Assembly: GCF_036850765.1 (NCBI RefSeq)
Contig: NC_089492.1
Location: 69,750,982-69,814,981 of the forward strand
Direction of reading: 5' to 3'
DNA: 64,000 nucleotides
Origin: Saccopteryx bilineata
Taxonomy: Eukaryota > Chordata > Mammalia > Chiroptera > Emballonuridae
Translations under genes and position numbers: made by a program
Part shown: positions 29,384-57,463 of the stretch, in pieces
How positions within the stretch are numbered: the stretch's first letter is position 1
Layout: each line of letters starts with the position of its first letter
The notes under the pieces: model-generated
The model's database searches: none
Told to the model about the DNA's origin: nothing
Seen by the model: only the letters and a program-made list of their open reading frames with translations

Positions 29384-30160
29384 TTTTTTATGTTTTTATT
29401 TTTTATTGATTTTAATTTATTGTGTTTACATAGATTCTACTGTTGCCCCAAATGCATCCCCCCACCCCATATTCCCCTCAACATCTCCCTTGCCCTCCTC
29501 CCAACAGCGCCCTCCCCCTTCCCTTCAGGTTTATCCCATCCTATCATCCTCTTTCCTTCTGTCCTCTTTTCCTCTGGTCCCTTTGATCTCTCCTCTGTTT
29601 CAATTCTGTTTCTCAGTTCACATTGTTCATTGGATTTCTCAAATGAGTGAGGTCATATGATATTTTTCTTTTTCTGCCTTGTTTATTTCACTTAACATAA
29701 TAGTTTTCAGGTCCATGCATGTTGTCACAAAAGGTAAGATTTCCTTCTTTTTCATGGTCCCATAGTATTCCATTGTATATATGCACCACCGCTTTTTAAT
29801 CTGATTGTCTACTGATGGACACTTAGGCTGTTTCCAGATCTTCACTATTGTGAACAATGCTGCCATAAACATGGGGATGCATTTCTCCTTTTAAAACAGT
29901 TCTATGGTGTTCTTGGGGTATATTCCTAAAAGTGGGATAACTGGGTCAAAGGCAGTTCAATTTTTAATTTTTTGAGGAATCTCCAAACTTTTTCACAGTG
30001 GCTGCACCAGTCTACATTCCCACCAGCAGTGCAGGAGGGTTCCCTTTTCTCCACATCCTCGCCAGCACTTATTCTGTGTTGTTTTGTTGATGAGCACCAT
30101 TCTGACTGGTGTGAGGTGATATCTCATTGTGGTTTTAATTTGCATTTCTCTAATGATTTA

Positions 30161-30190
30161 CACTGGGGAACAGATTTTTTTTTTCATTTT
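30161..30190 (+). repeat. Left terminal inverted repeat
   Basis: CACTGGGGAACA matches the inverse of the right terminus perfectly, then degenerates into a T run. The partner is at 32454-32483. Confidence 0.88.
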
Positions 30191-30484
30191 CTGTTGGATG
30201 AGATTTTAGAACTGTTTCTATATGTTTCTGCAATGCTAATTCCAAATCTGAAATCTGTTTCTTGGTACGTGTTCTAGTTTTTATGCAATTTTAGTTTCTT
30301 TTTGTTACAGTTAATGGCGTGCATTAGTTTTTAAATTAGAGTTAAAGGTCAATGACTCTTCCATTGAACATAACCACAAGGCAATTAATGTTTTACAAAC
30401 ATCACTTTTACATAATTGTGGTTGTTTTTAAATGTAAAAATTATCTGATAAAAACACCCTCTTATTTTGTTTTAAGATGGAATC

Positions 30485-32132
30485 CTGGCTTCTTCGAGTA
30501 GGCATAAATGTAAGAATAGTCCTGACACTTTCTGTTATATATGTGGCTGTTACACACTTCAATGTAAAAGGTGAAATATTTCATTATTTGTGACACGTGC
30601 ATATATTGCCTATTTTCAAGTTCCCCTTGGTGATCAAGACAAGAATTGGGCTCCTCATATTGTGTGTCATAATTCTAATGAAATGCTTCGTGACTGGACA
30701 AAAGGAAAAAGCAAAGGAATGTCATTTGGTATTCCCATGGTTTGGCATGAACCTAAGGACCACAGCAGTGACTGTTATTTCTGTCTGATCCACACAAAGG
30801 GCATTGGCAAGAAAAAACAGCATATGATCACATATCCTAATATTCCTTCAGCAATACGACCTATCCCACACTCTGAGACACTCCTGGTTCCAGTTTTCAT
30901 TGGTTTTCTTTCTTCTCAGAATGAAGAAAGTAAACATGGTGATCAAGTGTATTTTGATAAGATGCATGAGGAAATGGTTGTATAATCTGAAGTGTCTTCT
31001 TCTGATGCCAAGCAGTCATTAACCTCTCAGCAGTTTAGTCAACCTGAATTGAATGACTTAGTAAGAGATTTGGGCCTATCAAAGAAAGCAGCTGAGTTAT
31101 TAGCCTCCAGACTTCAAGAAAAAAAAATGTACTTCACTATTCAGCTAAAGTATCCCATTTCAGGAAGCGTGAACAAATTTTTATGGACTTTTTTTCCAAA
31201 GACAAACACTTTGTTTACTGTCATGATATTAATAGTCTTCTCAGCCAGCTAGGTGATACCACTTACAGTCCAACAGAATGGCAGCTATTTCTTAACAGCT
31301 CTAAACGGAGTCTGAAATGTGTTCTCCTACACAATGGTAATGTTTATGCAGCGGTTCCAATTGGTTATTCAACTCATCTGCAAGAAGATTATAATGACAT
31401 AAAAATTGTCCTCAACTTTCTGAAGTATGAGGGCCATAACTGGATCATTTGTGTGGATCTTAAAATGGTAAATTTCCTACTAGGACAGCAGAGAAGTTTC
31501 ACAAAGTATCCTTGCATTCTGTGTTTGTGGGACAGCCGAGCTTGGGAGAAACACTGGACACAGAAGGAGTGGCCGAAATGTGAAACTCTGGAAGTAGGGA
31601 TGCAAAATATTGTGAATGAACCTGTAGTTAATCGAGACAGGATCTTTCCCCCCCCAACACTACACATCAAACTTGGCTTAATGAAGCAGTTTGTTCAGGC
31701 TTTGAACAGAGAAAGTGAATGCTTTCAACATGTTATTTCTGCTTTTCCTGGATTGTCTTTCGAGAAGATAAAATTAGGTGTATTTAATGGACCTCAAATT
31801 CAAACCCTCATATGTGATGAAGAATTTGCCAGAAGATGAATAAGGAGGAGAAAGCAGCATGGCAGTCTTTTGTGACAGTTACAAAAAACTTCCTTGGCAA
31901 CAAAAAATACAGAAAACTATTAACTTCTGCCTCAAAAGATGCTGTTGTCTTTCTGAGACATTGGATGTAACATGAGCATTAAGATTCATTTCCTGAACAG
32001 TCACCTTGATAAGTTTCCCAAAAATCTTGGAGCTGTTAGTGATGAGCAGACCACTGCTGGAGTATCAAACGAGATTGTCCTTAACAAGTACACAAATGCA
32101 AGAGCTACAAACGCAAATTTTTGCCTGAATAG
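30485..32132 (+). pseudogene. Transposase of the CMC/Chapaev3-like element, inactivated
   Basis: About 550 codons, recognised as a protein family common in arthropod genomes and usually left unnamed there. The probable initiator is CTG at 30485 (a lost ATG). N-terminal Cys-rich blocks FCYICGCY and APHIVCHN suggest zinc binding. Further landmarks are WTKGKSKG, IPMVWHEPKDH, DLGLSKKAAELLASRLQEK, SSKRSLKCVLLHNG, ICVDLK (candidate catalytic Asp), YPCILCLWDSR (C-x2-C), LHIKLGLMKQF, LGAVSDEQ and the end SYKRKFLPE with TAG at 32130. Lesions: TGA at 30572, TAA at 30983, a frameshift near 31150-31165, a frameshift near 31833, further stops near 31921 and 31953, a deletion of roughly 25 codons at about 32049 just after DEQ, and TAA at 32082. 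The DDE-type mechanism is inferred from the family, not shown. Confidence 0.85.
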
Positions 32133-32453
32133 AATTTAAATAAGTTTTGCACAATTTTATAATTAAAATAAGTGTTTTAATATGTTCTATTTCGAAATTG
32201 TAGACAAATTCTGATGCAATTATATCTTTTAGTGTACTAGTGTATTTATTGCATTATATAAATTATTATATTTTCACAAAGATGATGCCCAAGAAGACAT
32301 TCTACTTCATTATGTTAAACTAAATGTTGAAAATTTTACAATAAGATGAAAACCTAAAATCTTGAATTGCAAAAAAAATTGTAGCTTACAGAGAAAAACT
32401 AATATCAGATTTGAGATCAGCATACACGAATTAGGTAAGAACAAGTGTATTTG

Positions 32454-32483
32454 TGGATGCAACAAAAATTTTGTTCCCCAGTG
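32454..32483 (-). repeat. Right terminal inverted repeat
   Basis: It ends TGTTCCCCAGTG, inverse of the left terminus (with G between T runs as TTTTGTTCC). The L1 sequence resumes after a TTA duplication. Confidence 0.88.
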
Positions 32484-32655
32484 TTAGTGATATTGAGCAT
32501 TTTTTCATATGCCTATTGGCCATCTGTATGTCCTCTTTGGAGAAGTGCCTATTCATTTCTTTTGCCCATTTTTGATTGGATTGTTTATCTTCCTGGTGTT
32601 GAGTTTTACAAGTTCTTTATAAATTTTGGTTATTAACCCCTTATCAGACGTGTTG

Positions 32656-33333
32656 TCAAACATATTCTCCCAATGTGTAGTTTGTCTTTATTCTGTTCTT
32701 ATTGTCTTTGGCTATGTAAAAGCTTTTTAGTTTGATATAGTCCCATTTGTTTATCTTGTCTTTTATTTCACTTGCCCTTGGAGATAAATCAGCAAATATA
32801 TTGCTGCGAGAGATGCAATAGAGCTTACTGCCTATGTTTTCTTCTAAGATGCTTATGGTTTCATGGCTTACATTTAAGTCTTTTATCCATTTTGAGTTTA
32901 TTTTTGTGAATGGTGTAAGTTGGTGGTCTAGTTTCATTTTTTTGTAGGTAGCTGTCCAATTTTTCCAACACCATTTGTTAAAGAGGTTGTCTTTATTACA
33001 TTGTATGCCTTTACCTCCTTTGTCAAATATCAGTTGTCCATAAAGGTGTGGATTTATTTCTGGGTTCTCTGTTCTGTTCCATTGATCTATATGCCTGTTC
33101 TTATGCCAGTACCAAGCTGTTTTGAGTACAATGGCCTTGTAGTATAGCTTGATATCAGGAAGTGTAATACCTCCCACTTTATTCTTCCTTTTAAAGACTG
33201 CTGAGGCTATTCGTGTTCTTTTTTGGTTCCATATAAGTTTTTGGAATATGTGTTCTATATCTTTGAAGTATGTCATTGGTATTTTAATTGGTATTGCATT
33301 GAATTTATAAATTGCTTTGGGTAATATAGACAT
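32656..33333 (-). pseudogene. L1-B ORF2 C-terminal segment (open over 225 codons)
   Basis: This uninterrupted minus-strand frame corresponds to the post-RT region of L1 ORF2p. It starts at [19 protein letters not shown] and includes [49 protein letters not shown] and [14 protein letters not shown]. It has no RT core or endonuclease because the element is 5' truncated, and it is cut off at the transposon side. The long open frame suggests L1-B is not very old. Confidence 0.85.
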
Positions 33334-33544
33334 TTTAATGATGTTTATTCTTCCTAACCATGAGCATGGTATATGCTTCTACTTGTTTGTATCTTCCTTG
33401 ATTTCTCTTATCAATGTTTTATAATTTTTCTAATACAAGTCTTTAATCTCCTTGGTTAAATTTAGAACCATATAAAAACAATGACAAAAAAAGAAAAGAG
33501 AAGAACCAAACAAGATACAGAGCTATCAGAAAACAATATATAAA

Positions 33545-55099: not shown

Positions 55100-55556
55100 A
55101 TTTATTTATTTATTTTTAGTGAGAGAGGAGGAAGAAAGAGAGACGGAGACAAAGAGAGACAGGACAGACAAGAAGTATGAGAGAGGAGAAGCATCAACTC
55201 GTAGTTGTGTCATTTTTTTTTCTGTTCATTGATTAACAATCTAGAAGAAATGGATAAATTGCCTAGAACTATACAATCTTGTACATGCCTTGACTGGGGG
55301 ACTCCAGCTGAGCCAGTAACCCCTTGCTCAAGCCAGCGAGCTGGGGCTCAAGTCAGTGACTTTGGGCTTCAAACCAATGACCTTTGGGCTCAAGCCAGCA
55401 ACCATGGGATCATGGATCCCACTTAAGCCACTGACCCTGCACTCAAGCTGTTGAGCCTGTGCTCAAGCCAGATAAGCTCATGCTCAAGCTGAGAGACCTC
55501 AGGTCCTCAACGTCCCAGATTGACACTCCATCTACTACACCACAGCCTGGTCAGGC
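55100..55556 (-). mobile_element. SINE-C carrying an L1 patch
   Basis: Minus-strand SINE-C with GAGA tail at the left and CCACAGCCTGGTCAGG head at the right. The target duplication TACATTTTAAATTTT (55085-55099) recurs as TACATTTTTAATTTT (55557-55571). At 55234-55280 the usual body sequence after TTCATTGATT (normally GCTTTCTCATA) is replaced by 47 bp of L1 ORF2. The central 'CAAGCCAGCAACC' units are also more numerous than in the other copies. Confidence 0.88.
55234..55280 (+). other. 47-bp L1 ORF2 patch inside a SINE
   Basis: It begins TAACAATCTAGAAGAAATGG and ends CTATACAATCTT. It equals L1-D 54181-54227 with one difference (ATAAGTTGCC there, ATAAATTGCC here). The other L1 copies differ more (for example AACAATGTAGAAG in L1-C). 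It has no tail or target duplication of its own, so it is not a separate retrotransposition. Confidence 0.9.
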
Positions 55557-55621
55557 TACATTTTTAATTTTAAAGAAGCTGAGAGAAGAAAGGGAAAACA
55601 TATATATTTATAAAGTTTGTT

Positions 55622-56031
55622 GGGTTTTTTTTGTTTGTTTTTGTTTTTTTGTATTTTTTTTTTGAAGCTGGAAACGGGGAGAGACAGTCAGACAGACTCC
55701 CGCATGCGCCCCACCGGGATCCAACCGGCACGCCCACCAGGGGCGATGCTCTGCCCACCAGGGGGCGATGCTCTGCCCCTCCGGGGCGTCGCTCTGCGGC
55801 GACCAGAGCCACTCTAGCGCCCGGGGCAGAGGCCAAGGAGCCATCCCCAGTGCCCGGGCCATCCTCGCTCCAATGGAGCCTCGGCTGCGGGAGGGGAAGA
55901 GAGAGACAGAGAGGAAGGAGGGGGGGTGGAGAAGCAAATGGGCACTTCTCCTATGTGCCCTGGCCGGAAATCAAACCCGGGTCTCCCCCACGCCAGGCCG
56001 ACGCTCTACCACTGAGCCAACCGGCCAGGGC
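55622..56031 (-). mobile_element. SINE-A with tandem duplicated segment, minus strand
   Basis: T-rich tail at the left, GAAGCTGGAAACGGGGAGAG body, GCCAACCGGCCAGGGC tRNA head at the right. The target duplication AAGTTTGTT is at 55613-55621 and 56032-56040. GCCCACCAGGGGCGATGCTC and GCCCACCAGGGGGCGATGCT are repeated back to back around 55730-55775. GC-rich frames here are artefacts. Confidence 0.92.
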
Positions 56032-56486
56032 AAGTTTGTTTTTTATTAAACTTTTTATTTACCATTTTTGTTTCTCTGTATTTCTTCCTGCGCATTTGAG
56101 TTACCATTTGATGTCATTTCCTCACTCTAATACATCTATAATCTCTTTTATGCTGTTATTGTCAAATACAGAAAATATATATTTTAAAATTTTAAATTAA
56201 GCAAATATATAAATATACAAAGTATATTTATGAAATAGAAAATATATATTATACATTTGTTTTTAAAATTAAGAGTAGAAATGATAAAAGTATGCAATTA
56301 CACTATTTGTTATAATTACCTACAAAATTACTTTTACTAGTACTCCTCATTTTTTTCTTGTGAATTTGAATTATTATCACATCACTTGCTTTCAGCCAGG
56401 AGAACTTTAGTTAATTTTTCATAAAGTAGGTCTGCTAGCAATAAATTCTCTTAGTTTTTGTTTATGTGTGAATGTCTTTATTTTGC

Positions 56487-56663
56487 CTTTATTTTTATTG
56501 ATTGATTTTAGAGAGAAAAAGAAGAAAGAGAGATAATTCATTTGTTGTTCCACTTAGTTGTGCATTTATTGGTTGCTTTCTATATGTTCCATGACCAAGG
56601 ATCAAATATGAAATCTTGGTGTTGCAGGATGACACTCTAATTTCCTGAGGTAACCAGCCAGGG
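56487..56663 (-). mobile_element. SINE-D (VES-like), minus strand
   Basis: TTATTTTTATTGATTGATTT, a GA-rich run, TTTGTTGTTCCACTTAG, ATCTTGGTGTTGCAGGATGA and AACCAGCCAGGGC are the inverse of VES. CCTTTATTT and CCTTTTATTT flank it as an approximate target duplication. It is more decayed than the other VES copies. Confidence 0.82.
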
Positions 56664-57106
56664 CCTTTTATTTAGTCTTTATTTTTGAAAGATATTTTTG
56701 TTAGCTATAAGACTCTTGGTTGACTCTTATTTGAACACTTTGAATATATTATCCCACTGCCTTCTGGTTTCTGTTACTTCTGCTGAGAAGTTAGCTATTA
56801 GTCTTACTGGAGTTCCCTTGTGTATGATTGAGTTTTTCTCTTACTGCTTCAAGATTTTCTCTTTATTTTTGGTTTTCAACATTTTTACTCCATTGCATAT
56901 GTATGTGGTTCTCTGCATTTATCCTACTTGGACTTTCTTGGATGTGTAGAAAATAAATTTTGATTAATCTGAAGAGATTTCAGCTGTTATTTTTCTAACA
57001 TTTTTTCTTCCCCTTTCTCTCCTCTCCCTTTAGAACTCTCATTATGTGATTGTTGGTGTGCATAGAGATGGCCCATATTTCTCTAAGGTTCTGCTCACTT
57101 TCTCTT

Positions 57107-57463
57107 TTTTTTTTTCATTTTTCTGAAGCTGGAAACAAGGAGAGACAGTCAGACAGACTCCCGCATGCGCCCGACTGGGATCCACCCGGCACGCCCACCG
57201 GGGGCGACGCTCTGCCCACCAGGGGGCGATGCTCTGCCCCTCTGGGGCGTGGCCATATTGCAACCAGAGCCACTCTAGCGCCTGAGGCAGAGGCCACAGA
57301 GCCATCCCCAGCGCCCGGGCCATCTTTGCTCCAATGGAGCCTTGGCTGCGGGAGGGGAAGAGAGAGACAGAGAGGAAAGCGCGGAGGAGGGGTGGAGAAG
57401 CAAATGGGCGCTTCTCCTGTGTGCCCTGGCAGGGAATCGAACCCGGGTCCTCCGCACGCTAGG
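57107..57463 (-). mobile_element. SINE-A, 5'-truncated, minus strand
   Basis: The T-rich tail, GAAGCTGGAAACAAGGAGAG body and GGGAATCGAACCCGGGTCC are present, but the last ~35 bp of the tRNA head (A-box side) are missing. The target duplication TCACTTTCTCTT is still perfect (57095-57106 and 57464-57475), so truncation happened at insertion. It has the same internal tandem duplication as the copy at 55.6 kb. Confidence 0.92.

Follow-up and report, generated by a model that had tools for sequence, protein, structure and literature searches.

What kind of transposon interrupts an L1 in the genome of the sac-winged bat Saccopteryx bilineata (Emballonuridae), and what has become of its transposase? 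The window analysed here is a 64,000-nucleotide stretch of contig NC_089492.1 (positions 69,750,982 to 69,814,981), and the element occupies window positions 30161–32483 on the plus strand. An original prediction, made from the sequence alone, had described it as a Chapaev3-like DNA transposon of autonomous type that jumped in a bat lineage, possibly after horizontal transfer. The host is indeed a bat. The element itself belongs to a class that has lost the catalytic glutamate through a shared deletion, and most sampled members of its family, estimated at roughly 3,000 copies, are dead in the same way. One undeleted copy is joined to a duplicated piece of DLGAP5 and may be part of a host–transposase fusion gene. 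Recent DNA-transposon invasions are unusual in mammals.

Structure and insertion site of the element

The window element is a complete DNA transposon of 2,323 base pairs (bp) with perfect 12-bp inverted ends, CAC...GTG. The terminal sequence CACTGGGGAACA occurs exactly at 30161–30172 on the plus strand and at 32472–32483 on the minus strand, and nowhere else among the 11 window matches with up to two mismatches, of which about 6 are expected by chance. The ends pair further as 27-nucleotide arms of 85% identity, the left one reaching to 30187 and the right one starting at 32457. The transposon is flanked by TTA at 30158–30160 and 32484–32486, the two copies of the target-site duplication. It lies antisense within an L1, whose left and right portions extend approximately over 29400–30160 and 32487–33400 on the minus strand.

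Elsewhere in the window, two older L1-like stretches align with a probe made of the joined flanks without a break at the junction, at 74–76% identity. The empty site was also sought throughout the S. bilineata genome (2.61 Gb, 256 contigs) as AATGA, one to four free bases, and AGTGATATTGAGC. It is present at 181 places, against 0 for the control. Among the 100 sites listed, 97 read AATGATTAGTGA, corresponding to AATGA-TTA-GTGATATTGAGC; the remaining three deviate at a single base, and an extra base is present in none. The left flank of the window locus (AATGATTTA) contains one extra T before the TTA, a form seen in none of these 100 sites. When empty, the window site reads A-TTA-G. The 181 empty sites, together with the L1 flanks, establish that the TTA duplication is real and that the transposon inserted later than the L1. 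The predicted unit, with its inverted ends, its TTA flanks and an L1 continuous across it, is thereby confirmed.

Transposase remains and a shared deletion

The transposase frames of the window copy are open in pieces, and all three landmarks quoted in the original prediction are found in them. The first stretch (30476–31126, plus strand, in the frame of 30161) contains two in-frame stops. Its start-codon position, 30485–30487, reads CTG; the majority protein of the family starts with MASSSRRK. The catalytic part (31130–31837, plus strand) lies in another frame. Here the position of D270 (31294–31296) encodes N, D324 (31456–31458) is retained, and the C(2)C and LH motifs are located at 31513–31524 and 31660–31665. 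The remains continue in two frames (31836–32049, plus strand), with the H(4)H motif (first H at 31987), up to the junction of a 76-bp deletion. At this junction (32040–32049, plus strand), about 10 bases are common to both parts of the undeleted copies. The deletion takes out the stretch with the catalytic glutamate, equivalent to E522 of P0001, a protein of S. leptura described below. Further stops and frame shifts come on top of the deletion, the CTG and the N at D270. With the glutamate gone, D270 replaced and the frame broken, neither triad nor frame is intact, and the element is not of the autonomous type that had been proposed.

The 76-bp deletion is common to 27 of the 29 copies first aligned, a set obtained with the deleted query, and the stretch is kept in 2. 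An independent sample consists of the first 28 sites of the terminus list on contig C1, picked by TTA plus the 12-mer alone. All 28 match the element: 19 are deleted, 5 hold the stretch, and 4 do not span it. Two of these sites, L003 and L005 (G000:C1, 5.82 Mb and 6.18 Mb), share an identical 3′ flank in opposite orientation, represent a segmental duplication and count as one insertion, so that the deletion is present in 18 of 23 independent informative sites. Of the 19 deleted sites, a further 328 bp are missing from 7 and a further 732 bp from 2.

The majority sequence of the deleted class is otherwise open over 549 codons; the 76-bp deletion therefore preceded the spread of the class. The catalytically dead elements were probably mobilised in trans by the transposase of undeleted ones. 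Against this stands the majority of the seven undeleted copies, which itself holds stops.

Copy number, target preference and age

As anticipated, the 12-bp termini recur across the genome with TWA flanks. The terminus preceded by TTA is found 929 times (470 + 459), against 7 (2 + 5) for the reversed control, and the terminus preceded by TAA 1,172 times (575 + 597), against 4 (3 + 1). An exact TWA plus 12-mer is present at 21 of 58 termini in sampled copies, which gives a genome total of about 2,900 copies; the estimate is rough, the sampled copies being the best matches of one query. A first-pass DNA search named 3,473 candidates, 40 of them scored.

Flanks were tabulated for 30 copies fetched by internal similarity, with both ends placed in 29. 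TWA stands before the element in 18 of the 29 and behind it in 19 (37 of 58 flanks); A precedes the target in 18, and T follows it in 20. Identical 3-bp flanks are found in 13 copies, 12 with TWA and 1 with TAT. Part of the table does not fit a simple TWA duplication: 16 of the 29 copies have no identical 3-bp flanks, more than a divergence of 3–4% accounts for, and the 5′ flank ends in T in 9 of the 29, which is unexplained. In L013, L014, L023, L024, L029, L031, L033 and L036, the T-ending 5′ flank mismatches the 3′ flank; L011 also has a T-ending 5′ flank, but its flanks match (TAT/TAT). Aberrant insertion, recombination and another target type are candidate causes.

The mean Kimura two-parameter distance to the class majority, at non-CpG positions, is 0.031 for the 76-bp class (n = 32), 0.039 for undeleted copies (n = 7), and 0.039 for the 328-bp class (n = 7); the window copy stands at 0.042. 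The mammalian substitution rate is about 2.2e-9 per site and year. At this rate, the distances would place the age of the family at about 14–18 million years, possibly somewhat too low a figure because the 32 copies of the 76-bp class are mostly best matches of the window copy. Per copy, 520 codons contain a mean of 2.5 frame shifts and 3.7 stops. The ratio of nonsynonymous to synonymous changes is 2.67; transition and CpG weights of our choosing predict 2.65. Judged from these counts, the copies are decaying neutrally.

Short interspersed nuclear elements (SINEs) and a palindromic DNA element lie inside some copies. The SINEs within L002, L008, L028, L031, L045 and L049 are of the tRNA type, and two further copies are broken at the element position affected in L049 (1821–1835), perhaps forming a SINE-carrying subfamily. 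L034 contains an insert of about 600 bp with palindromic ends (CAGTGTGTCTGTAAAGTCATGG...), which resembles a mariner-type miniature element. Another DNA transposon therefore moved after the L034 copy had inserted.

A candidate transposase–DLGAP5 fusion

P0001, known from automatic annotation of S. leptura, is composed of the whole open transposase frame and a 117-residue tail, 681 residues in all. A search with its residues 562–681 returns P0001 and 60 other proteins, all assigned to Pfam PF03359 and, where named, nearly all DLGAP5. In S. bilineata, DLGAP5 is located at C4:44978262-45021371. A partial inverted duplicate of its last exons lies about 150 kb away, at C4:45167570-45176029, and its two listed exon matches have no internal stop. 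An undeleted element copy stands directly upstream of the duplicate. Its frame, free of insertions and deletions (indels) along 564 codons, is 97.7% identical to P0001. The candidate fusion locus (L059 and L060; G000:C4:45175600-45180250, minus strand) is thus made up of a 564-codon frame, a splice donor and two DLGAP5-like exons, with one stop.

The last codons of the element, HKRKSYKRKFLPE, with AGC changed to AGG, provide the donor AAGAG/GTACAAAC before the stop codon. The same change is present in 1 of 48 other copies. At the next exon, the acceptor TTTTTTTCCAG/G permits an in-frame continuation, R-SSIVEDAQ, consistent with P0001. Both splice sites were judged by eye. Where the duplicate and DLGAP5 differ within the tail, P0001 sides with the duplicate at 6 positions, one of them at an exon end, and with DLGAP5 at 4; it carries no private change. 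Given this sharing of residues, the fusion locus is the same in S. leptura and S. bilineata. The catalytic and zinc-type residues checked at the locus are all kept. In the 650 bases fetched, the element could be followed to its position 156, which borders a SINE. Its 3′ end reads TTTCCCAGTG and then AATT, with no TWA.

Signs of purifying selection at the candidate fusion locus

Relative to the family majority, the S. bilineata locus carries 24 nonsynonymous and 20 synonymous changes and 1 stop; the corresponding sums for 48 other copies are 2,169, 784 and 189 (Fisher p = 0.0057, or 0.0037 with stops counted as nonsynonymous). These counts supersede a partial one of 19 nonsynonymous and 18 synonymous changes over 474 codons. 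Restricted to private changes, the numbers are 7 and 11 (p = 0.0005). The locus has no indel event; 39 comparable copies have a mean of 4.2, and none has zero.

When the locus is cut to the element, noncoding positions have changed at 18 of 509 (family, 0.0326) and third codon positions at 17 of 546 (family, 0.0289). First and second positions have changed at 16 of 1062, or 0.0151, against 0.0297 in the family, and none of the 48 copies is as low. This deficit has p = 0.0047 within the locus and 0.012 against the other copies. The trimmed test replaces a first noncoding figure of 0.127, in which SINE bases had aligned with the element; the same bases stay in an accompanying tree and, outside the counted codons, in the alignment used for nonsynonymous and synonymous changes. 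By these measures, neutral sites have diverged as in the rest of the family, and first and second positions lack half of the expected change, as under purifying selection.

Alternative explanations

We regard as evenly poised the proposal that sac-winged bats took a Chapaev3 transposase, with a RAG1-like core and full triad, into a new gene spliced to a duplicated tail of the mitotic protein DLGAP5. Such a gene would be a recent counterpart of RAG1, with an age below about 20 million years at the rate used above; in one of the two species examined, a stop already interrupts it. The capture would likely predate the split of the two species; S. leptura would have kept the gene, and S. bilineata would have lost it recently or be polymorphic for it. 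Several observations weigh against the proposal. Codon 105 of the S. bilineata locus is TAG, the frame being open in P0001, and the tail exons in S. bilineata carry four changes absent from S. leptura. The fusion model of P0001 is an automatic annotation. The p-values for constraint range from 0.0005 to 0.012 depending on the test, and between the species, change in the tail does not differ significantly from change in the transposase (p = 0.086). In a rival explanation, the locus is not a gene at all: an ordinary undeleted copy, open by luck, would have been joined to DLGAP5-like exons by the annotation program. We give this explanation somewhat less than even weight. Automatic annotation favours open frames, and the stop and the four tail changes fit relaxed selection in S. 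bilineata. The insignificant tail comparison also counts for the rival. From family means of 4.2 indel events and 3.9 stops per copy, a Poisson estimate over about 600 undeleted copies (5/23 of about 2,900, our scaling) yields about one copy free of indels and carrying no more than a single stop. However, choosing an open frame does not by itself produce first and second positions at half the family rate while third and noncoding positions are average. The nonsynonymous and synonymous counts (24/20 against 2169/784) and the tail residues and frame common to two species also speak for a gene.

With about one such copy expected by chance, an open frame alone was rejected as proof of domestication. 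The window copy, whose 2,323 bp are close to the 2.4 kb of undeleted copies and whose transposase is mostly recognisable, could be read as a decayed autonomous element. This is very improbable: the deletion that removes the glutamate is found in nearly all first-aligned copies and, with the class majority open for 549 codons, is older than the spread. The shared deletion contradicts the reading of the window copy as an autonomous element.

Relatives, fold and origin

P0001 is the closest protein. Other entries, which lack species names, reach up to 77% identity to P0001, and the highest identity among named relatives outside Saccopteryx, 74% over partial length, is that of the stick insect Bacillus rossius. 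P0001 and the stick insect are sisters in a tree of 49, with support of 100/91. Further named relatives come from a frog, an amphisbaenian, a snake, Hydra and a beetle, at 56–61%. The arthropod-like motifs of the original prediction are borne out by the closeness to the stick-insect transposase, but aphids, to which it had pointed, are absent by name from two lists of 120. The best 120 entries of each of two protein searches, most of them nameless, include none named from another mammal. Pattern matches numbered 9 in viral contigs and 19 in prokaryote genome contigs, with no confirmed relative among either. No report of a Chapaev family in bats or of a Chapaev-derived mammalian gene was found in the open-licence literature.

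Horizontal transfer, with an arthropod or a parasite as the probable donor, is a fairly likely source of the family in the Saccopteryx lineage. The low distances to the class majorities, the sister position of Bacillus rossius and the absence of other mammals among the few named entries are in favour. In addition, Chapaev3 families are reported to undergo repeated horizontal transfer (PMC4079192). On the other side, an identity of at most 74% to named relatives outside Saccopteryx is too low for dating a transfer, the comparison covered Saccopteryx alone among bats and no donor DNA, and the viral and prokaryote collections yielded no confirmed relative.

D270 and D324 are invariant and E522 nearly so in an alignment of 50, and the E522 codon is kept in all seven undeleted copies and at the fusion locus. 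The transposase core is predicted to adopt a RAG1/Transib-like DDE fold; the structure match comes from the second-look aligner alone, with 9–14% identity in the listed rows. Foldseek against the PDB returned nothing at E <= 0.001, and a PDB sequence search gave one chance-level match. In Pfam, neither the window pieces nor P0001, the P0001 tail or two relatives match any family that passes the cut-off. Below cut-off, a weak zf-AD match is seen at the transposase N terminus (P0001 residues 17–72, E 1.7; Hydra P0110 residues 16–71, E 0.024). Rfam has no match in the window. Elsewhere in the window, at 55326–57463, short tandem-repeat tracts (GCCCACCAGGGGGCGACGCTCT) lie within SINE copies and are presumably bat-type.

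Proposed history

We consider the following history, as a whole, highly probable. In the Saccopteryx lineage, a Chapaev3 family grew to about 3,000 copies; its full element is about 2.4 kb long, with a single-frame transposase of about 570 codons and a probable preference for A-TWA-T targets. The 76-bp deletion would have arisen in one element, with loss of the catalytic glutamate. This dead element, and derivatives with a further 328 bp or 732 bp deleted, would have been copied in trans by undeleted ones until they became the majority. The window copy is one such dead element, inserted in an L1 and later decayed. An undeleted copy landed upstream of the partial inverted duplicate of DLGAP5 exons, where a one-base change produced a splice donor before the stop codon. 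The transposase frame would then have been kept by purifying selection as a candidate host–transposase fusion gene.

An emballonurid family of this size, with sampled sites mostly occupied by dead deletion forms, shows how a young family can come to be dominated by internally deleted copies. If true, the fusion would offer a view of an early stage in the host capture of a RAG-like transposase, with thousands of neutral sister copies serving as clock and control.

Comparison with known systems

Judged by its motifs, termini and target, and set beside the named families by description, the element is a Chapaev3-group (CMC) cut-and-paste transposon, as originally classified. It has 5′-CAC ... GTG-3′ termini, a 3-bp TWA target duplication (TTA/TTA in the window copy), the C(2)C, LH and H(4)H motifs and, in the family, a DDE triad. 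Cutting at the CAC...GTG ends would be expected by analogy with the Chapaev3 family.

The published account of Conan, Merrow and Garfield (Zhang et al. 2014) describes the same 3-bp TWA duplication, there placed between A and T, the same ends and three motifs, and a patchy distribution among animals with deletion derivatives; Garfield is also similar in size, with a transposase of about 556 residues and an element of 2.3 kb (PMC4079192). The mammal named there is the tenrec, which contains Conan; Chapaev3 in mammals is thus known already, and the novelty suggested by the original prediction does not extend to a mammalian Chapaev3 as such (PMC4079192). The bat family differs in its emballonurid host, in that most sampled copies are catalytically dead forms of 1.6–2.3 kb, and in the joining of one copy to DLGAP5-like exons. 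Unlike the two-exon transposases described for Merrow and Garfield (PMC4079192), its transposase has a single frame: at the fusion locus, residues 1–564 of P0001 correspond to one continuous frame containing a single stop, and the majority sequence of the deleted class is open over 549 codons. The bat element is an addition to a known kind, and the fusion candidate is the added point of interest.

The likeness to RAG1 and Transib is limited to 9–14% identity and leaves the N-terminal part of the transposase outside the match. Transib also duplicates a 5-bp target, in contrast to TWA here. Host–transposase fusion genes such as KRABINER and SETMAR are known. The candidate differs from them in its Chapaev3 source, in a host part derived from a duplicated C-terminal piece of DLGAP5, and in the one stop in S. 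bilineata; it would resemble them in having a transposase frame spliced to host exons and kept by selection.
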